Part shown: in pieces, positions 39,630 to 50,065 of the stretch | Position numbering within the stretch: the stretch's first letter is position 1 | How the letters are laid out: the number at the start of each line of letters is the position of its first letter | Origin: Lachnospiraceae bacterium | Lineage (GTDB): Bacteria; Bacillota; Clostridia; Lachnospirales; Lachnospiraceae | Assembly (NCBI GenBank): GCA_017427775.1 | Contig: JAFRSD010000012.1 | Span: 1 to 64,000 of the forward strand | DNA: 64,000 nt | Direction of reading: 5' to 3' | Notes under the pieces: generated by a model | The model's database searches: none | What the model saw: only the letters and a program-made list of their open reading frames with translations | What the model was told of the DNA's origin: nothing | Position numbers and translations under genes: made by a program

Positions 39630-40064
39630 TCAGAACAACACAAGAAATGCCGCTGATAACTCCCCCAAAGCAAGAAACGGATAAAACGGGATACGTGTCT
39701 TTCTCCCGGCCTTTCGAAAGCACAGCAGTGCTAGCGACACGATCGACGAGAAGACCAGTCCGATGCATAGCATCATTACGGTTGCGGAAAATCCCATGGC
39801 TGCTCCGCAGATACCTATCATCGCCGCATCACCTCTCCCGACCGCTTCTCTCGTCAGAAAACTGACGAGAAAGAATACCGCACCGAGCAGTATCCCCATA
39901 ATCCGGGCCGGAAGCGGAACGTTTCGCTCCCACAGTGCTATCGGAATTACACCCGCCGCAGCAATCAGCAAATACAGCAGCGATACGCTTTTCCTTCGGA
40001 TATCCGATATGCTTCCTAAGACGGTCATTCCGATAATATACCAATACATCACACCCAGTTTCAC
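39630..40064 (-). CDS. A24 prepilin peptidase (TadV/CpaA type)
   Basis: 144 residues from GTG 40064, which overlaps the upstream stop as GTGA and has GGAGGAG 7 nt before it. Four to five membrane helices. The two catalytic aspartates are in SISDIRRKSV and in the GxGD-type motif GRGDAAMIG. It cleaves the short leader of the Flp pilin and pseudopilins at the inner face of the membrane. It lacks the methylase domain, as in other TadV proteins. Confidence 0.88.
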   Translation of the reverse strand: MKLGVMYWYIIGMTVLGSISDIRRKSVSLLYLLIAAAGVIPIALWERNVPLPARIMGILLGAVFFLVSFLTREAVGRGDAAMIGICGAAMGFSATVMMLCIGLVFSSIVSLALLCFRKAGRKTRIPFYPFLALGELSAAFLVLF

Positions 40065-40897
40065 TCCGACTCTCCTCCGCATTTGCTGCACGCACGAAGA
40101 CCTTTCTCAATTGCTTCCTCTTCCGTGATTTCCGTCACGCTCCTTCGCAAGGCCCTGCAGGCAACCGTTTTATGGTAACGATCTCCGTATTCGGCGATAT
40201 AATATATGCTTCCGGGGGCGTCCCCACAGTATTCACAGGGATAGTATTTCCCGCCGGAGGAGTTTCGTTCTCCCGGGAGCTGTTCTGCGGTAACAGGACG
40301 AACGGTAATCTTCAGATAAGTACAGTCCTGGCTTCGATGAAACACCGTCCCGTTTTCAGCGACATAGACCGCCGTTTCATCATCTTCGTCTTCCTCCTCT
40401 TTCTGCTTTGCGGGAACTCTTCCCGCCCCGCTGAAGCCCCTTGCCACAATCTGCTGCTTCACGGATATTCCGCCCCATCGGAATATCCCGCTCTCCGGCG
40501 CATAAGAATAATCGGCCAGTATCCGGATATCCATACCGCCCTCGTAGATAGAGGAACCGGCAAAAGATATTCCGTCTGTTCCTCCCCGAATCAGGCGGAG
40601 CCATTTTTCGCCTTTCAACCGCTGTCCGATCCGCAAGGTCAGATACCCTTCCGTTCCGAGTTGTCGGAGCAGTTTCTCCACTCCGTCCTTTTCCTCCGAT
40701 GCGGAATCCTTCTTTTCCGTAGCTTTGGAAAGAATGGTTCCCACAGGCATCAGTTCCCTGCAGATTTCCGCCAGTTCTTTCTCCATTCGTACCTGGACTT
40801 CCAGAAACAGAAACAGATTAAAGAAGAGGATTACTGCGAGGAAAGAGACCGGCACCACAAGCGCCGCCTCAACCGTTAAAGATCCTTTTCTTCGCAT
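40061..40897 (-). CDS. TadE-like protein with C-terminal cysteine-rich (zinc-ribbon-like) domain
   Basis: 278 residues. The N-terminus GSLTVEAALVVPVSFLAVILFF is a TadE-type membrane anchor. The middle carries RMEKELAEICRELM and an acidic linker (KEEEDEDDE). The last 90 residues hold two CxxC pairs (CEYCGD and CSKCGG) plus two single cysteines (QDCTYLK, VACRAL), so the outer domain may bind zinc or form disulfides. GGAGGTGAT precedes ATG 40897. It follows the structured spacer at 40898-41066. Confidence 0.7.
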   Translation of the reverse strand: MRRKGSLTVEAALVVPVSFLAVILFFNLFLFLEVQVRMEKELAEICRELMPVGTILSKATEKKDSASEEKDGVEKLLRQLGTEGYLTLRIGQRLKGEKWLRLIRGGTDGISFAGSSIYEGGMDIRILADYSYAPESGIFRWGGISVKQQIVARGFSGAGRVPAKQKEEEDEDDETAVYVAENGTVFHRSQDCTYLKITVRPVTAEQLPGERNSSGGKYYPCEYCGDAPGSIYYIAEYGDRYHKTVACRALRRSVTEITEEEAIEKGLRACSKCGGESE

Positions 40898-41066: not shown

Positions 41067-43307
41067 CTAATATAGGAAAGTCCCGGTTGCTTCCACGGTA
41101 CAACCGTCATATTCACCGGGACCGATCATCGGAATGCCGGTATATTTGCCCGGAAGCCGGGCTCGAACAGAAACGGCAAGTCCGCACAGACAGTCGGCCA
41201 TCCGAAAGTCCGGATTATCCGACCGGCAGATCTGCTCCTGCATCAGATCCATGGAACGAAATACAATATTCCGCTCTCTGAAAAGAAGCAGAAACAGCGT
41301 AAGATATGTCCCATACCCCGGAGCAACGCCTTTTGCATCTTCATATTGCTCCGCTCTCTCCATCCGCTTTTCCTTGCTCATGGAGAGAATCTCGTCATAA
41401 GAAACCTGGAAAGAAGAGGTTGTCACCAGAAACGGAACCCGCTTCCCCTTCAGTATTTCCGCAGCCTCCAGTCTGGTGTTCTGTAACGCCCAGGTAAACA
41501 GAATTATGTAAGTACATGCTTTGATCAGGAACGGAAACGAATCACCGAATATCTCGATTGCCGTTGTCATCGCCTGGTTCTTCTTTATCGGATTCGTGAA
41601 CGTATGGATTACATTCAACAGAAACCGGATGCCGAGAATACTTGCCGCCGCACGGCGCAAATTCTCCGGATCGCTCTTCTTCCCGAACAGGATATATTCA
41701 ATCTGATAATCCAGAACATTTTCTTCTTCATTCACGATTTCCGTCATATAATCAGGAAATGTCGTCTTTACATATCCTGCAAGAAGAACCTTCTCCGTCA
41801 GCGCCTCCGCGCCCTGCCTCAGCAGTGATGCTATTTCGGAGAAGCGGAATTCTTTTATGGCTTTCCAAAAGTTCGTTTCCCCGACTCCTCCGATATTGTC
41901 AAAGGAAAGGTCGAACAGGTCAAAAGCGTCCAGTCCGAACGTGTTCGACGGAAGCTGCCATGCCGTCATCTTTTTTACTGACATTCCGTCAGAATCAAGA
42001 ATTCCGGAGGTAAGCCCCTGCAGGAGGATATTCTTGAAACCATTCCATAGACTTTCCTTTACCGACATGGACTTGCGCATTCCCGTGTAGTGAATCGTAA
42101 GACCTTCAAAGGAAAGCTTTTTTGCTTCCTCCTCCGTCCGCTCCAGTTTTTCACGCCAGTTCTCCGTCGTGCTTTCCGCATACTCTTCGAAACAATTCCG
42201 GACATTTTTCAGAATATCCCGGTTCTTTTCTACCCGCAGACGCATGGCACGAAAATCATAGAAGTCATTCTTTCCTGCGTATTTCTGCATGGTGTCAATG
42301 CTTTCACCGAGTGCTTCCTTCCACTCATCGGACAGCATGCCGTCAGCCTCCTCCAGCTTCTCGCGATACTCCGAAAGTAACGGCTTCAATTCCTCCTGCA
42401 AGAGGATCAGCTGGCTCAATATCGAAATCGTCTCTTCATTCTTTTTAATGGTGCGGTCAAGCATCGAACGGATTGTGTCACGCTCCGCAAAACGCCAATC
42501 CGTCTGTTCCTCCCCGGACCGGTTCTCCTCATAGTCTTCCCGGTCCTCCCGCAATAACTCTGTCAGCGTCAGTAGGTTATTATATTCCGGAAGCAGATAC
42601 ATAAACATGGCAAAAGAATCCACTGCAACCGATTGACGCGTCGGTTCAAACGCGACAAGCGTTTTCGCGAAGTATCTCTCGGGCTTCACCTTCCCGTCCT
42701 GATCACAAACGATTCCTCCGTAATTGGTCGGGATGCCGTCCAATGCCGTGATCAGCTTCATGATAAGAAGATCCATCGCCGTCAGTTTTTCTTCGGATTT
42801 GGCCTTCTCCTCGAACAGCAGCATTCCCGTTTCCTGTTCTTTTAATATTCCGAGAGTCTCTAACAGTTCTTCGACAAGGTCTTCTGCCCCGTTCACCGCG
42901 CCGGCGGAGATCATCTGATTCCTTACCAGATCCCCATCCAGGTCAAGCATGTGTAGCTGTTTACTGATATTTATCTCGGTTCCGGAAAATGCGAAGCCGT
43001 ATCCCGACGAACGGTCCCCGGAATAATCCTCCGGCAGATCGGCCAACGGATTGACGCTTCCCTTCAAATATGCTTCCAGTGATTTCTTCGCATCCTCCCC
43101 GTATATGCCGTATATCCCGTAGCGGTCAAATAACGGCGTATAGTATTGTCCGGCCAGCGAGTCCATTGCCAGCGAGACCTCTGTCTGCAGCACTGCTGCC
43201 GCCGCCTGTTGCCTGGCTGATTCCACACTTACCAGAACAAGCGACAACAGGAGCACCAGTACAAAGGAGAACAGCACCGTGACCGCTCCGTTCAGACGCT
43301 TCTTCAT
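41067..43307 (-). CDS. Tad-locus TadG-like membrane protein (DUF5702-like)
   Basis: 746 residues. A TadG/TadE-like N-terminus (GAVTVLFSFVLVLLLSLVLVSVESARQQ) is followed by a large mainly helical extracytoplasmic region with an IYGIYGEDAKK segment. A helical stretch from about 590 to 660 includes one or two hydrophobic helices. The size and motif fit the DUF5702 proteins of clostridial Tad loci, from memory. ATG 43307 overlaps the pilin stop (ATGA), so translation is coupled to the pilin gene. Confidence 0.75.
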   Translation of the reverse strand: MKKRLNGAVTVLFSFVLVLLLSLVLVSVESARQQAAAAVLQTEVSLAMDSLAGQYYTPLFDRYGIYGIYGEDAKKSLEAYLKGSVNPLADLPEDYSGDRSSGYGFAFSGTEINISKQLHMLDLDGDLVRNQMISAGAVNGAEDLVEELLETLGILKEQETGMLLFEEKAKSEEKLTAMDLLIMKLITALDGIPTNYGGIVCDQDGKVKPERYFAKTLVAFEPTRQSVAVDSFAMFMYLLPEYNNLLTLTELLREDREDYEENRSGEEQTDWRFAERDTIRSMLDRTIKKNEETISILSQLILLQEELKPLLSEYREKLEEADGMLSDEWKEALGESIDTMQKYAGKNDFYDFRAMRLRVEKNRDILKNVRNCFEEYAESTTENWREKLERTEEEAKKLSFEGLTIHYTGMRKSMSVKESLWNGFKNILLQGLTSGILDSDGMSVKKMTAWQLPSNTFGLDAFDLFDLSFDNIGGVGETNFWKAIKEFRFSEIASLLRQGAEALTEKVLLAGYVKTTFPDYMTEIVNEEENVLDYQIEYILFGKKSDPENLRRAAASILGIRFLLNVIHTFTNPIKKNQAMTTAIEIFGDSFPFLIKACTYIILFTWALQNTRLEAAEILKGKRVPFLVTTSSFQVSYDEILSMSKEKRMERAEQYEDAKGVAPGYGTYLTLFLLLFRERNIVFRSMDLMQEQICRSDNPDFRMADCLCGLAVSVRARLPGKYTGIPMIGPGEYDGCTVEATGTFLY

Positions 43308-43501
43308 CGCAGGATTGCGCCGGAATCCGATTTGATGGAATCAAATGCACTGTTGATAATGGATGTGATCTCGTTCTTAAATATGAGGACCAATCCGATA
43401 ACAATCACCAGTATCAAAATTATCTCGACAACTCCAATACCGCTCTGGTCTTCCATGAGACCTTTGAACGTGTCTTTTATCTTCTGCAGTCTCTTTTTCA
43501 T
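43304..43501 (-). CDS. Flp1-family type IVb pilin
   Basis: 65 residues. A basic leader of about 21 residues ends in QSG, then IGVVEIILILVIVIGLVLIF: cleavage after Gly would place Glu at +5, the type IVb pilin rule. A short polar tail follows. It is the likely major subunit of the Tad pilus, and AAAGGA precedes the ATG. It sits between tadC and the DUF5702-like gene. Confidence 0.9.
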   Translation of the reverse strand: MKKRLQKIKDTFKGLMEDQSGIGVVEIILILVIVIGLVLIFKNEITSIINSAFDSIKSDSGAILR

Positions 43502-43520: not shown

Positions 43521-44972
43521 CTAGAAACTCATAAAAGCCGGAATCATAATGATCGCGAGGATAAGGACCAGAATACCGGCCATCGGGACAAGCAGTTTCG
43601 TTCCTGCCTCCTCGCCGCTTTGCTTGACCCGCTCTCTGCGGTCGGCAAAAGCCTCCGCCGCCTCTTTTCGAAGTAGCGGCACCAATCCGCCGGTTCCTTT
43701 CTTCAGATTCTGGACAAGGACCGACGATAATCTTAAATAACGGATATTTCCGCAGTTCCGGCCAAACTCCTCATAAGCCGTCTCCTCCGGAACGCCGGCA
43801 TTAAGCCGGTTTCTTGTATTTCTCATTTCCTCATAAACATATCTTGTCGTATCGTTCTTTCGGGAAGACATATAATCTTCCGTGATTCTGTCCCAGGCGG
43901 ATCTTAAAGTAAGACCCGCCTGCATTAACAGTGTGATTTTGCTGACCAGATCAGGATAGTCTCGCAGTAACTGATCCTCCCGCTCCTTTCGCATCTGTTT
44001 CTCCTCGGACACCCACTTTGCTGAAATTCCGATCAGAAACACGATCAGGAGACCCGCGAAAAGCCATGGTGTTCTGCTCTTCTTTTTATAAAATGTGATC
44101 GGGGATTCCCCCATGTCGGTCGGCAACTCCATGGTTGCTTCGTAAATCTGGTCTGCGTCGCTTTTCGCCAGTTGTTCCTGCAGCATCTCGCCGATGTCCG
44201 TCACTCCGTTCTCTTTAACCACCCGGATCGGAATATCGAAGAATTCCGTTAACTCCCTATACTTTAAGCGTGCGGTCACGGTAACAACATGTCCCTCCGC
44301 CGGCACATTCGCAGGGTATACCCTTCCGTCATGGTCTACAATCCGGTAGTCAGAGGACATCCATATCAGGTCCACATTGGTTCCGGGCAGTTTCTTCGGC
44401 AGACTCAGCCGCGAACTCACCTCATCCGGACCCGGATTCTGTCCGAGTATTTCATCCGGCAGTGTCAGCTTTGCCTTCTCCCAGGCAGTACGAATCTCAC
44501 TCTCCGTGAGTGTTCTTTCCCGAACCGGAAGATCCATTTCATACTCTTCGTCCTGATATACTGCTTTCAGATGATATATTTCGGTTCCGCTTCCGGGTCT
44601 TTGAAAGGCTTCCACTCTCACATCGGAAAATGTGCCTCGCACCGCCATCAGCAGCATCAAGCCGCCGAATCCCGCCAACAGTCCGAAGACTGCCAGACCC
44701 TGTCTGCATTCCCTGCAAAGCCTTCGAAACATCGGATTCTCATTCACATACATGGAACGATAGAATTGCTCTTCCCGCTTCTGTAACTGGACTTTCCGAA
44801 GAAAACGTCTCTTCCACAGACAAAGCAGATAGCCCCCACCCAGATATCCTGCCTTCGCGTCCCGAAGCACTTCCCAGTCCCGGTTGCCCCTCCGAAGCAG
44901 GACGGCATATCCGGCAAGAATAAATGAAACTCCGAGACACGCGGTTAAGGCTGCTGTCAGGATAACTGTCAT
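43521..44972 (-). CDS. TadC-type platform protein with inserted Ig-like extracytoplasmic domain
   Basis: 483 residues, long for TadC (about 300). The hydrophobic helices are at 3-25, 92-110, 302-320 and 461-481. Residues 325-460 carry the type II secretion F fold (DYPDLVSKITLLMQAGLTLRSAW, GNIRYLRLSSVLVQNLKKG). Residues about 115-295 face outside and include an Ig-like unit (about 164-253: LSLPKKLPGTNVDLIWMSSD, HDGRVYPANV, HVVTVTARLKY). It matches the atrophied bacterial Ig pattern. TadC with TadB forms the inner-membrane platform of the pilus. Confidence 0.85.
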   Translation of the reverse strand: MTVILTAALTACLGVSFILAGYAVLLRRGNRDWEVLRDAKAGYLGGGYLLCLWKRRFLRKVQLQKREEQFYRSMYVNENPMFRRLCRECRQGLAVFGLLAGFGGLMLLMAVRGTFSDVRVEAFQRPGSGTEIYHLKAVYQDEEYEMDLPVRERTLTESEIRTAWEKAKLTLPDEILGQNPGPDEVSSRLSLPKKLPGTNVDLIWMSSDYRIVDHDGRVYPANVPAEGHVVTVTARLKYRELTEFFDIPIRVVKENGVTDIGEMLQEQLAKSDADQIYEATMELPTDMGESPITFYKKKSRTPWLFAGLLIVFLIGISAKWVSEEKQMRKEREDQLLRDYPDLVSKITLLMQAGLTLRSAWDRITEDYMSSRKNDTTRYVYEEMRNTRNRLNAGVPEETAYEEFGRNCGNIRYLRLSSVLVQNLKKGTGGLVPLLRKEAAEAFADRRERVKQSGEEAGTKLLVPMAGILVLILAIIMIPAFMSF

Positions 44973-44992: not shown

Positions 44993-45706
44993 CTAAAATG
45001 ATATTTCCGCTATCTTCTCCGCGTAACGACAGCAGAACAGATAGCAAATATAAACAACCAGCATGATCAATCTGCCGATTATTCCCTCATACAACGGCTC
45101 AAGAAAGGCCGGCGCAAATAATCCGAAATAAGCAAGTATGGCGAACGGCATCCATTTCATGATCGTCACTTCCAGCTGTTTCGCCAAAAGCACGGTCTGA
45201 ATCTCCCGGACAACCTCCTGCTTTCGATACAGCGTATCATTGACCGACCGGATGACATAAACCAGATCCCCGCCCGAGCGGTTCGCGATGGCGAAGACTA
45301 CGGAGAAACTCCGTATGTCTTCCACCCCGCTTTGCTCTCCGAATTCGCGGATAACCGTCTCCGCGTCTTCGCCGTTTTTGAGCCTGTGGCTCATTCGCCG
45401 GAATGCCACCGCAATCGGGGCATTCTCGTCAAACATTACACGTAGGTCCGAAACAGCATTGTTTACGCTGTTCTCAATGCTGTATCCCGCTTCCAGCGAC
45501 GAAAGCATACATTGCAGTCCGTCCCGGAATTGGGACGCGAGCAGCTGCCGGCGGCGGACCTCCACCGCTTTCCGGTCTTGGTGAAGGCGGTACAGAAAAT
45601 AAGGACCCAGCCAAAGAATGCACCAAGGCGTCCGAAAGAACAGAAAACCGGAAGCCGTTATAAAAAGTAGGTTTATTACTATTATTCTCAGATAATCGGT
45701 AAACAT
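44993..45706 (-). CDS. TadB-type platform protein
   Basis: 237 residues. N-terminal helices (about 7-45) are followed by the F-domain pattern QFRDGLQCMLSSLEAGYSIENSV and FSVVFAIANRSGGDLVYVI, then two C-terminal membrane helices. It partners TadC under the TadA ATPase. GGGAGGG precedes ATG 45706 inside the end of tadA (19-bp overlap). A frame-mate sequence on the opposite strand is not a gene. Confidence 0.87.
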   Translation of the reverse strand: MFTDYLRIIVINLLFITASGFLFFRTPWCILWLGPYFLYRLHQDRKAVEVRRRQLLASQFRDGLQCMLSSLEAGYSIENSVNNAVSDLRVMFDENAPIAVAFRRMSHRLKNGEDAETVIREFGEQSGVEDIRSFSVVFAIANRSGGDLVYVIRSVNDTLYRKQEVVREIQTVLLAKQLEVTIMKWMPFAILAYFGLFAPAFLEPLYEGIIGRLIMLVVYICYLFCCRYAEKIAEISF

Positions 45707-46932
45707 TCTCCCTCCCCGGCGGCAAGCAGTTTGCCGCGTCTTACGAGTTTTCTCCCAAGGTGCTGAAGTTTGCCGATGATCCTTCCGTTCTCATCTTCCC
45801 CTTCCTCGCGGAACCGGAACAAAGGACTCAGTTCGATCTCCCCGTTCACACACGCCGTTACCTCAACAATTTCCGTCACGCGGCGCGTCTTATCCCGCAA
45901 GCGGGAAAGCTGAATGATAATATCAATCGCCGAAGCAATCTGTTTCCTGATTGCCAGCAGCGGTATTTCCTCGCCCAGCAATACCATCGTCTCAATTCTT
46001 GAAAGCATGTCCGCAGGGGAATTCGCGTGTCCCGTGCTCATACCGTTATGTCCCGTATTAAGAGACTGCAGCATATCAATGGATGCCGCATCACGTACCT
46101 CGCCGACGATTATCCTGCTGGGTCTCATTCGCAGAGAGGTCTTGATCAGATCACGGATCGTGACAGCATGATTGCCCTCCATATTGGCATTCCGCATCTC
46201 CATGCGGACCAGATTCGGGATATTGGAAATCTGAAGTTCCGCCGAATCTTCTATCGTGATGATCCGCTCCGTCGGAGGAATATAATCGGAGAGCACATTC
46301 AAAAAAGTTGTCTTCCCGACTCCGGTCCCGCCAGACACAAATATGTTATAACCGGCCCGCACAAGTACTTTGAGGTATTCCGCCGCCTCGACGGTAATGG
46401 ATTCCATCTCGATCAGGCGGTCCATGGTGATCCGGTCCTTCGGAAACTTCCGGATTGTCAGCGCCGGACCCGACAGGGATACCGGCGGGAGAACGGCATT
46501 TACTCTCGAACCGTCATCGAGCCTTGCATCCACGATCGGATTAGCTTCATTTACGACACGATTCACGCCTGCCGCTATCTTCTGAATAACATCCTCTAAC
46601 CGCTTTCGGTCAAAGAAGTGCCTATCGCTCTGATAGAGACTTCCCTCTTTCTCGAAGAAGATGCCCTCCGGGCCGTTTACCATGATTTCGGTGATGGCAG
46701 GATCCTCCATAAGATCCTGCAGGACATCCAAACCTCGCAACGAATCAAAAACATCCTTCTTCGTCTCGCGTCTCTCTCGCACGCTGAGCCGTTCGCCGCC
46801 TTCAGCGGAATCCCGGATCACCCGTTCGATCAGCAGTCTCATATCACCGTCACTCAATTCAACGGATCCGTCCACCTTCTGAAGCACGAGCATCCGGAAC
46901 CGGTTTCTGCGTTCTTCACGCGTTAGTGCCAT
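45688..46932 (-). CDS. tadA: Pilus assembly ATPase TadA/CpaF
   Basis: 414 residues from ATG 46932 (GGAGG upstream, 17-bp overlap with the TadZ-like gene). Type II/IV secretion ATPase: NGPEGIFFEKEG and DDGSRVNAVLPP in the N-domain, Walker A SGGTGVGKTTFLNVL, Asp box ERIITIEDSAEL, Walker B SRIIVGEVRDAASIDML, His box HNGMSTGHANS. It powers pilus extension and retraction in Tad systems. Confidence 0.95.
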   Translation of the reverse strand: MALTREERRNRFRMLVLQKVDGSVELSDGDMRLLIERVIRDSAEGGERLSVRERRETKKDVFDSLRGLDVLQDLMEDPAITEIMVNGPEGIFFEKEGSLYQSDRHFFDRKRLEDVIQKIAAGVNRVVNEANPIVDARLDDGSRVNAVLPPVSLSGPALTIRKFPKDRITMDRLIEMESITVEAAEYLKVLVRAGYNIFVSGGTGVGKTTFLNVLSDYIPPTERIITIEDSAELQISNIPNLVRMEMRNANMEGNHAVTIRDLIKTSLRMRPSRIIVGEVRDAASIDMLQSLNTGHNGMSTGHANSPADMLSRIETMVLLGEEIPLLAIRKQIASAIDIIIQLSRLRDKTRRVTEIVEVTACVNGEIELSPLFRFREEGEDENGRIIGKLQHLGRKLVRRGKLLAAGEGECLPII

Positions 46933-47803
46933 CCGCCTTTTCCTCCGTAAAATCCCCCACCGGACGCAGGCGGTCACGGAAACCTCCGTATTCCGCCTGC
47001 CGCTCCAGTGCACGCAGCTTCTCTTTATTTCTCCCCCCACATGACCAGATCACGTCGCACCGCGTAAGCAGTTCCTCCGTTCCTCCGGTTCCGAAATCGA
47101 TGATCAGATTCCGGTATTCCTTCTCCCTGAGTCCGGTAAGAAAAGCCTTCGCCTCTTCTTCTCCGAACAGGGATGCATCATCCATTCTGCGTACGCCGGA
47201 GAATACCGTAAGTGCTCCAATCGGCTTTGAGCAGTATTTCATATGATCCGTCCAGGATTTTCCATATTCCTGAAGCAAATACACCAGTTCACTGACGCCG
47301 CCGTCCTGCTCCGGCAATTCCGCAATCCCGGGCGTCCGGTTCATACTGAGAAAGGCCGTCTTTCCGGCGGCTGCCATTAGAACCGCTTTCCGATACGCTT
47401 CCGTGGTGCAACCGCACCCGCCCTCCGCTGCGGCAAAACCCAGTACCTTGAGTGCCTGTTCTCCGGTGTCCCGTACGGCTGGTCCGTCCGGACCGTCGCA
47501 TGCCTGCTGCACGCGCTCGGCTATGGCAGAGATTGTGCTGTACATAAATACCTCATCCGCTTTGCACTCCTTGCGGTCCGAAAGCCACAAAACCGTGCTT
47601 CCTTCCCATCGGCCGGCAAATGCGGAACGATTCTCCTCGGGTACCTGCGCAAGCACTGCCGTCACGCCTCCCCTTCCCGCCCGGATTTCCTCTTCATTCT
47701 CATATCCCGCAACTGTCCATTCTCTCGAAAAATACTTCGGGAATACATCCATCAGCTGCTTTAAGTACGAAATATTCTGACAAATCACAACCAGTTTTTT
47801 CAT
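46916..47803 (-). CDS. TadZ/CpaE-like protein with degenerate P-loop
   Basis: 295 residues. About 1-100 is a receiver-like N-domain (KLVVICQNISYLKQLMDVF). The second half resembles a MinD/ParA-type domain, but the expected KGGxGKT(T/S) motif reads EGGCGCTT at 127-134, so both lysines are lost. A later strand, NLIIDFGTG, fits the Walker B position. TadZ proteins place the Tad machinery at a pole and are known to be atypical. It is the first gene of the Tad operon. Confidence 0.75.
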   Translation of the reverse strand: MKKLVVICQNISYLKQLMDVFPKYFSREWTVAGYENEEEIRAGRGGVTAVLAQVPEENRSAFAGRWEGSTVLWLSDRKECKADEVFMYSTISAIAERVQQACDGPDGPAVRDTGEQALKVLGFAAAEGGCGCTTEAYRKAVLMAAAGKTAFLSMNRTPGIAELPEQDGGVSELVYLLQEYGKSWTDHMKYCSKPIGALTVFSGVRRMDDASLFGEEEAKAFLTGLREKEYRNLIIDFGTGGTEELLTRCDVIWSCGGRNKEKLRALERQAEYGGFRDRLRPVGDFTEEKADGTNA

Positions 47804-48131: not shown

Positions 48132-50065
48132 ATGAAAAAGAATATGTTACTGCTGCTTATCCTGATTCTGGTTGCCGCTTCGGCCGTATTTTGCAGAACG
48201 TGCCATGCGGAAGGAGAAGACGAATGTAAAATAACCGTGGAGGGAGGCTACGCAAGCGAGCCTACTTCCTATGGAAACGTGGATTATTGCTGGGATTTGC
48301 CGAAGGATCAGCGAATCGTCAGTGTTACGCTCAGAAAAAAAACTTACAAAGGCACGTACAGGGAAGAAACCCGTGCTTGGAACGCTATCGCTTACAAGGG
48401 CGAAACCCCAGATGGCAGGATTACCTGGCAAAGCCGCGATGTCATCAGCGACGACGTCACGGAATGTACCGTTACAGCGGTTATCGAAACCCGCCCGACT
48501 ATGTCGCCGATTGTTTTCGATCTGCAGAAAGGTGCCTGTGTTGCCCCGCAAAATGAGCCGGAAGGTCTTCTCTATGAGTGGACCCATTATAGTTTGAGCC
48601 AGCTCCTTGCGAACAGCGGCCTTAAGCATAATGACCGGGTCTTTCCGTATACCTCTTATGACCTTGACGGGGACGGGACCTGGGATGTAGCTCTTTCTTC
48701 AACGGGTTATTTCTCGAACAACTACGGCGAAACCGCTTATATTTGCAAAGGCCTTCTGATCCCGCTTCCGGGACGGAGCGTTTCGGGCAGCACGACGGTC
48801 AGCCTGAAGTTAAATCCGAATCGATTTTTAGACTGGTACTATCAATACGGGGACGCGGTTCCGGTTACCTTCCTGTTCGGCGAAGCAGAAACCAGACCGG
48901 AGTATACGATTACGGTTTCCGGCGGGTATGCCGAAAGCTCCAACGAAGACCGAACCGTCTTCACGAAAGTTATAAAAGCCGCGCCCGGAACCCCCATACG
49001 GCTCACGGGAGATGTTCATGAAGGTGAATATGTTTCCTCCTGGACCGGTGATTACTGGTCATTCCTCAGCCAAACGGAGTGTCGGGAATATGCGGGTACC
49101 TGGTTTTACATGCCGGCTGCGGATGTCACAATGACTGCAGTTTGCAAAAAGCAGCAGCCATGTGCAGTCAGCCTGTCAGGCGGTTATTTCCGCTCCGACG
49201 CGAACGCCATGATAAACGGGCGTTCCGTTTGGTTATCCATGACGGATTCCTTTGGCCTCGATCCGGAAACTACTTACAGAACCGCAGATGTGGACGGAAA
49301 CGGGACTCCGGATATTGCCATCGCAAATTTTAACGCTTCGTCAGAAGTCCTTTACGGAGAGTCGCCTTTCTATATCGTTCCGCTTGGTACGTGCAGCATT
49401 ACGGACGAATATACCGTTACCGCTCTGAATCGCGGCCCTTATTGGCCGATCACGTTCCGCTTCGCAAAGGAGCCTCCGGCGCGGGAATATAAACTGACGG
49501 TCAGAGGCGGCTATGCGCAGAACCGGCATAATGAAACCGTTTCGCAAACCGTCGCTCCGGGCACACCGCTCAAAGTTGTCTATGATAATTATGATGACAC
49601 CTATTATTACAACAGTTACTTTCATGATGATAAGAACTACTTATATCCCGAGGGTCACCCGAGGAGAAACACCTGACCGTGCCAGGCGAAGACTACGGGC
49701 AGCCATTTACCGCCAACTTTGTTATGCCGGCCTTTGATATTACGCTGACTTTTGCGGACTGGGATGGCGAGGATGATCCCCCGTCCGTGACACCCACACC
49801 CAACAATATAACCCCGGCGCCGACCGAGCCGGCCGTATCGCCGACACCGACGGACGTCCCGACAGTCACAACAGAGGCCACGCCTTCCCCTCTTCCGGCT
49901 GACGCGGTAACTCCCGAAGCGGACACGATGGCGGCGGACCGTACCGATTCGGATCAAAAGAACGGTAATCTGCTGTTATGGCTGCTCATTCCGTGTGCCG
50001 CCGTCCTAACCGGACTCGGTGCATTTGCCTTATGGAAACTCGAAAGAAAACGAACAACGAATTAG
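48132..50065 (+). pseudogene. Modular surface protein interrupted by a one-base frameshift
   Basis: The first frame (48132-49676, 514 codons) has a signal peptide (about 1-26, KKNMLLLLILILVAASAVFC) and four copies of a beta-rich unit beginning ITVEGGYA, ITVSGGYA, VSLSGGYF and LTVRGGYA. It stops in the middle of the fourth unit. Sequence finishing that unit (PEEKHLTV...FTANFVMPAFDITLTF) is in the -1 frame and runs to 50065 through a Thr/Pro-rich stalk and a C-terminal membrane helix with KLERKRTTN. One extra G in the GGG at 49652-49654 would join them into about 644 residues. It may be a real pseudogene, a phase-variable gene or a sequencing error. No LPXTG is seen. MoxR follows 9 bp later. 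Confidence 0.75.

Follow-up and report, generated by a model that had tools for sequence, protein, structure and literature searches.

An immunoglobulin-like insert in the outer loop of the Tad platform protein TadC of Lachnospiraceae and its possible role at the pilus exit

To our knowledge, the way in which a type IV filament is steered or anchored through the thick wall of a monoderm bacterium, where there is no secretin, is poorly understood. The locus described here raises a question within that larger one, namely, what an immunoglobulin (Ig)-like domain might be doing in the predicted outer loop of a pilus platform protein. It lies in a stretch of 64,000 nucleotides from a Lachnospiraceae bacterium (contig JAFRSD010000012.1, positions 1 to 64,000), referred to here as the window. 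An Ig module on the outer face of the platform may bear on the means by which a pilus passes the thick monoderm wall, and the presence of the insert across most of one bacterial family, together with its absence from a few members, provides a direct handle on its function. In the available parts of the open-licence literature searched, no description of an Ig insert or outer domain of TadC was found; the accessible sections of a study on the superfamily of type IV filaments, which discusses secretin loss in monoderm Tad systems (PMC6668835), and of a survey of Gram-positive pili, in which Tad operons were most widely distributed among Clostridia (PMC3244431), contain no mention of such an insert.

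The platform protein and its membrane layout

The open reading frame (ORF) under study occupies positions 43521 to 44972 of the minus strand, encodes 483 amino acids and is, on sequence grounds, the Tad pilus platform protein TadC, with a predicted role in pilus assembly. The original prediction had made the same assignment, and it is borne out by a T2SSF match to residues 348 to 478 (Pfam, E 2.1e-7, 31.4 bits against a curated cut-off of 25.2), by a helical fold of the GspF type in the predicted model, in which residues 334 to 461 match the solved cytoplasmic domains of EpsF, PilC and OutF with Z scores of 11.1 to 11.5, and by the neighboring genes for TadA, TadB and Flp. TadC itself matched no NCBIfam family. 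The locus is composed as follows.

46916..47803, minus strand: ORF at the TadZ position of the locus, assigned by position only; no Pfam family matched
45688..47040, minus strand: TadA ATPase (T2SSE, E 5.7e-53; TIGR03819, E 2.2e-81, below the TIGR03819 cut-off)
44993..45706, minus strand: TadB-type platform protein, 237 aa (Pfam T2SSF, E 4.1e-9)
43521..44972, minus strand: TadC-type platform protein bearing the aBig insert, 483 aa (ORF, Pfam and AlphaFold2 model)
43304..43501, minus strand: Flp pilin precursor, 65 aa (Pfam Flp1_like, E 6.4e-21)
41067..43307, minus strand: DUF5702 protein, 746 aa, adjoining Flp (Pfam, E 9.6e-52)
39630..40091, minus strand: prepilin peptidase (Peptidase_A24; Pfam, E 4.7e-8)

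The same set of TadA, TadB, Flp and prepilin peptidase is found in Tad/Flp (type IVc) loci, and the TadC (CpaH) protein of these systems has the same single T2SSF domain and transmembrane layout; TadC of other families is mostly about 290 to 310 residues long, whereas the protein described here has an additional Ig-type insert of about 188 residues in an outer loop. Its parts, in order from the N terminus, are given below.

44892..44972, minus strand: hydrophobic segment 1, residues 1-27 (hydropathy; model helix 2-27)
44700..44891, minus strand: basic N-terminal loop, residues 28-91, predicted to be cytoplasmic (mean net charge +6.0)
44634..44702, minus strand: hydrophobic segment 2, residues 91-113 (hydropathy; model helix 80-111)
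44070..44633, minus strand: insert, residues 114-301, predicted to be extracytoplasmic (absent from nearly all TadC rows of other families; acidic; insert-only model pLDDT 93.1)
44517..44621, minus strand: putative second aBig unit, tail half, residues about 118-152 (family-level profile alignment; hairpin 131-139/142-150 in the model)
44214..44507, minus strand: complete aBig domain, residues 156-253 (Pfam aBig_2; AbnA Z 11.0; AbnA sequence E 9.8e-8)
44076..44198, minus strand: putative head half of the second aBig unit, residues about 259-299 (family-level profile alignment; L283 and P284)
44004..44075, minus strand: hydrophobic segment 3, residues 300-323 (hydropathy)
43593..43991, minus strand: T2SSF (GspF/PilC) domain, residues 328-460, cytoplasmic (Pfam T2SSF; EpsF/PilC/OutF Z 11.1-11.5)
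43524..43601, minus strand: hydrophobic segment 4, about residues 455-483, the coordinates being those of residues 458-483 (hydropathy)

Cytoplasmic domains of solved structure are homologous to the T2SSF part, and only hydrophobic segment 3 separates this part from the insert, which puts the insert outside the membrane; the order of charges along the protein agrees with this placement. The loop at residues 28 to 91 has a mean net charge of +6.0 (range 0 to +13, none negative, 70 rows), the insert one of -18.3 (-31 to 0, none positive, 79 rows) and the T2SSF part one of +5.2 (+1 to +12, 79 rows). The extracytoplasmic location that had been proposed for the extra segment is therefore the one predicted by both homology and charge bias, which favor the outside over the cytoplasm.

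Two other regions of the window deserve mention. On the minus strand, at 40061 to 40897, an ORF has a TadE-like N terminus (Pfam TadE at only E 0.56) and, toward its C terminus, two stretches with paired cysteines (FHRSQDCTYLK...CEYC and YHKTVACRALR...CSKC) that resemble small metal-binding modules carried by a pilin-like protein. On the plus strand, at 48132 to 50065, a secreted-type ORF of 514 amino acids with repeats ends at 49676, and a 128-amino-acid ORF at 49679, in another frame and with a hydrophobic segment at its end, seems to carry on the same repeats; the pair is possibly a single gene broken by a frameshift or an assembly error.

The Ig-like domain and a second, apparently divided unit

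The original prediction had put about 180 extra residues between helices 2 and 3; such a stretch is indeed present between hydrophobic segments 2 and 3, and it amounts to about 188 residues (114 to 301). It contains a match to aBig_2 (Pfam PF20578) at residues 181 to 253, with an E value of 1e-5 and 25.7 bits, just below the curated threshold of 27, in the scan of the protein, and with 29 bits, above the cut-off, in the scan of the whole genome, where no other aBig_2 match was found at E values up to 0.001. Every member of an alignment of relatives (32 of 47 listed TadC loci) matched both T2SSF and aBig_2 at E values up to 1, the best aBig_2 value among them being 3.5e-11. AlphaFold2, supplied with 79 sequences, gave a mean pLDDT of 89.4 for the whole of TadC and of 93.1 for the insert alone, and the insert-only model matched the Ig-like part of the arabinanase AbnA with a Z score of 11.0 (rmsd 2.7 over 91 residues, 156 to 253), followed by matches with Z scores of 7.7 and 7.5 to an Akkermansia hexosaminidase. 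With Foldseek, AbnA was recovered at E 3.7e-6 and only AbnA entries fell under 0.001; the library consisted of solved structures only, and no claim on the rarity of the fold is attached to these rankings. At the sequence level, a profile of the insert recovered this part of AbnA with an E value of 9.8e-8. The aBig_2 domain of AbnA (5ho0, 5ho2, 5ho9 and 5hp6, residues about 548 to 638) is thus like the insert in both sequence and predicted fold, but the aBig domain of TadC sits inside a polytopic membrane protein and is flanked by what appear to be half units in swapped order. An Ig fold had been anticipated from a sequence pattern; structure prediction returned an Ig-type beta sandwich rather than some other fold, and with the aBig_2 matches we regard a TadC bearing an outer Ig insert as an almost certain architecture.

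Across the family, the flanks of the complete domain fit the two halves of a second aBig unit, such that the insert would read as tail half, full domain and head half, an out-of-phase slice, two periods long, of a tandem Ig array. The spacing of aBig repeats in arrays has a median of 97 residues (76 spacings under 130), and the median insert length of 197 corresponds to two such periods. The putative head half comprises a helix (residues 261 to 274), an LP motif (283 and 284) and a strand (293 to 296). The ends were scored against an independent aBig profile built from 90 repeats that came from ten loci outside the family; these repeats had been located with the TadC core, but no TadC sequences were included in the final profile. 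Mean scores were 8.6 bits for the ends joined in swapped order, with the C end placed ahead of the N end, 4.8 for natural order, -3.2 for reversed sequences and -3.3 for shuffled ones (79, 79, 79 and 395 sequences, respectively), and the swapped order outscored the natural order in 71 of 79 sequences, which are related rows and not independent tests. The N end aligned to profile positions 54 to 81 and the C end to positions 17.5 to 47 (medians), with 46/79 and 36/79 sequences, respectively, scoring over 3 bits. When whole sequences were aligned in one pass, three ORFs from outside the family displayed the tail-full-head order, with weak single halves (bits for the three parts: L199, 19.0/70.5/0.1; L200, 12.9/64.0/1.0; L201, 3.4/49.9/8.1). 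The family ORF L142 gave the tail and the full domain only, and the window protein scored above 0 bits for the complete domain alone, neither end having a positive score. Profile-profile comparison with hhalign gave a weak match of the core with the halves in swapped order (P 0.0034, 13 columns; the best among 40 shuffles reached 0.044), and in global mode the natural order scored 14.3 (52 columns), above the swapped order at 11.2 (best of 100 shuffles, 10.6). Covariation between the half units, with 5/840 pairs over a z score of 3 against 7/2555 and 9/1752 in controls, was not clearly above background. The case for a split unit is based on the scores against the independent profile rather than on hhalign; its halves could together form a further Ig domain next to the membrane.

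Distribution and history of the insert

The Ig-insert TadC is the usual form of the protein in its family and not an oddity of one genome. The sampled family is taken to be Lachnospiraceae, since the named loci are mostly titled as Lachnospiraceae or genera within it. A query with the insert-bearing TadC found a match in 19 of 22 genomes of the genus and, for the family, in 387 of the 396 genomes sampled, the source genome included; positions are known for 150 listed matches among the 387 matched genomes, and all 150 start at residue 169 or earlier, so that they include most of the complete Ig domain. Alignments were used to re-examine 29 genomes, namely, the 9 of the family and 3 of the genus without a match and 17 with weak matches: 12 remained without a match, 12 of the weak ones bore the insert and 5 encoded a TadC without it. 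The original prediction had treated such an insert as something unfamiliar among Tad systems, a view that this distribution does not sustain within the family; the architecture is a family-wide variant of a known platform protein.

Outside the family the picture is different. In a class sample of 246 genomes, 9 of them from the family, the insert was seen among the matches listed in 3 of the 237 outside genomes (two from family f158 and one from f7). The other TadC-type rows of the class, among the matches listed, range from 214 to 557 amino acids and match from residue 269 or later, and TadC proteins outside the family, among the matches listed, are mostly about 290 to 310 amino acids long and lack the Ig insert. 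Three genomes from outside the family but within its order gave no match. In a phylum sample of 398 genomes, 5 of them from the family, 78 of the other 393 had any match, and no TadC-type row in those 393 started before residue 287. Viral contigs yielded no relative with the patterns tried. The insert part alone matched ORFs of other families that range from about 370 to 6,400 amino acids and are mostly over 1,000, many of these ORFs carrying repeated aBig units.

Long TadC-type ORFs also occur outside the family (542 to 557 amino acids in f173 and 690 to 704 in f19), and the possibility that they carry another outer insert was rejected for those inspected (L228 to L232), none of which has an aBig match. 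The f19 ORFs look, by eye, like run-through of a frame in GC-rich DNA. Three of the f173 ORFs (L228 to L230, 544 to 557 amino acids) have T2SSF at the end and a front that is TadB-like by eye, and may be TadB-TadC fusions.

A tree of the T2SSF part only, comprising 74 chosen rows and rooted at the midpoint, gathered 37 of the 39 insert-bearing rows into a single group with support of 99/93, values that come from a short domain and a bootstrap that had not settled. Three insert-less rows (L180, L181 and L183) are nested within this group, L183 as sister to the insert-bearing L142 (100/92) and the other two at an unresolved fork, and two further insert-less family members (L182 and L186) group with other families. 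A constraint that held the insert-bearing rows together with the three nested rows was not rejected (p 0.2), whereas one that excluded the three was rejected (p 8e-6); the simplest reading of this outcome is loss within the family, and these three members appear, on the evidence of the tree, to have lost the insert. Their neighboring ORFs are kept at the TadA, TadB and DUF5702 positions, as read from translations. Flp-like ORFs, identified by eye in the translations, are also retained, so that loss of the pilin along with the insert was rejected; since the three keep Flp-like and platform ORFs, the insert is not strictly required. A search for an insert that had split off into a neighboring gene, with the core profile at E values up to 10 across 18 to 18.5 kb around TadC in the genomes with the loss (L210, L211 and L212), found no aBig-like ORF of at least 60 amino acids, and fission was likewise set aside. 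The three nested rows lie on long branches (1.31 to 1.41 changes per column), and the platform may change faster where the insert has been lost.

The two insert-bearing f158 rows stand apart from the main group in the tree. Two independent gains, in the main clade and in the f158 pair, were considered and not adopted: the tree separates the two, yet one origin followed by losses is not rejected. The f158 and main-clade inserts share the tail-full-head order and, by eye, a similar RP..G stretch after segment 2, which argue for one origin, by descent or transfer, and a single gain is a possible history of these sequences. One genome (G957, with L214 and L220) encodes both an insert-bearing TadC and a 6,391-amino-acid ORF with at least five aBig matches; an array of that kind could have been the donor of the insert.

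A possible role at the pilus exit

We suggest that the insert serves as a collar or docking module. An Ig module of the aBig type would be built into the short outer loop between segments 2 and 3, and its tail-full-head order, about two repeat periods long, would return both ends to the membrane; the two half units would together make up an Ig domain close to the membrane, on top of which the complete domain would sit. With about three copies of TadC around the pilus exit, the inserts would make up a short collar on the outside of the membrane. This vestibule would be structural and would also offer a surface for docking, supporting the Flp filament as it emerges and keeping pilin-like partners, or the platform itself, in position beneath the peptidoglycan. 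That about three inserts could surround the exit follows from published models of the Tad motor with three TadB/TadC pairs, in which one or two pairs are also considered (PMC11300603 and PMC12307814), and from the trimer of PulF, which is backed by cross-linking (PMC10790770). The collar would partly do the job of separate outer-face subunits in other systems. The accessible text on RcpC describes a periplasmic conduit in diderm Tad systems (PMC12307814), likewise an outer-face structure around the filament path, but RcpC is a separate dodecameric protein that reaches a secretin; that on FlaF (ArlF) of archaella describes an Ig-like outer domain with S-layer binding and a proposed part in forming a channel (PMC4307647). 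The likeness to TadC is one of description, both type IV filament machines having an Ig-like domain at their outer face, and FlaF is a separate single-span subunit. The explanation as a whole, combining the Ig-insert TadC, its split-unit construction and the collar or docking role, is the best that we can offer and is almost as likely to hold as to fail; the predicted function taken by itself is put forward more tentatively. The tail-full-head construction suggests a route by which a repeat array could be accommodated in a short membrane loop while its two ends stay at the membrane. In its boldest version, a surface protein would have supplied a tandem Ig array, cut out of phase at a length of two repeat periods and grafted into the outer loop of the platform, its halves closing a composite domain at the membrane and its copies forming a collar that took over the guiding or anchoring performed by RcpC or FlaF and became standard in one large monoderm family, a scenario that we regard as doubtful.

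The collar or docking function is the reading to which we commit ourselves, and anchoring to the wall is ranked second. Here, the Ig module would act as a stator: by attaching to peptidoglycan or a wall polymer, it would hold the platform in place while the pilus pulls. FlaF offers a precedent, and the lower-ranking structural matches of the insert model include the Ig domains of the S-layer proteins SbsB (Z 5.9) and Sap (Z 5.6), although matches at this level and below may reflect only a shared fold arrangement. No wall-binding Pfam family was matched in the TadC protein, the insert is acidic and aBig units recur as repeats in many large ORFs, and we consider wall anchoring unlikely. An old harmless insertion or folding aid for the platform, serving no dedicated partner, is improbable: its loss seems to be tolerated in three family members, and it changes faster than the T2SSF part (mean pairwise identity, 0.264 and 0.484, respectively), but most of the Ig domain is present in all 150 listed family matches, insert length is held within 190 to 216 residues (79 rows) and several residues are nearly invariant (R125 and N179, each in 78/79 rows; G216, L283 and P284, each in 79/79). 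In a monoderm wall, an insert of 190 to 216 residues tethered at both ends would sit under the peptidoglycan and not at the cell surface. This expected position speaks against an adhesive module, as entertained in the original prediction, that would contact the host, food particles or other cells. The aBig units found elsewhere do occur in ORFs that are in many cases likely surface proteins, but there was no sign of ligand binding and, beyond the generic aBig fold, no adhesin family was matched in TadC by Pfam; an adhesin was dropped as the leading reading on the strength of its expected place beneath the wall and seems very improbable. An artefact of gene fusion, assembly or reading frame is refuted by open frames in many separate genomes, by the insert in all 80 named loci, which had been ranked by their likeness to a query that carries it, and by an internal stop in only two of the 150 listed family matches.

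Replacement of RcpC by the insert was also considered. The genome of origin has no RcpC match, and RcpC exceeded its cut-off in 2/12 insert-bearing and 13/32 insert-less genomes, a comparison confounded by family; the five insert-less members of the family also lack RcpC. Presence and absence across these 44 genomes give no clean association, and replacement was not adopted, except as an element of the boldest version given above. Separately, the same genome carries, outside the window (C15:77400-78377), a second platform gene, an ORF of 410 amino acids with two T2SSF domains, and it probably has another system of the type IV filament type.
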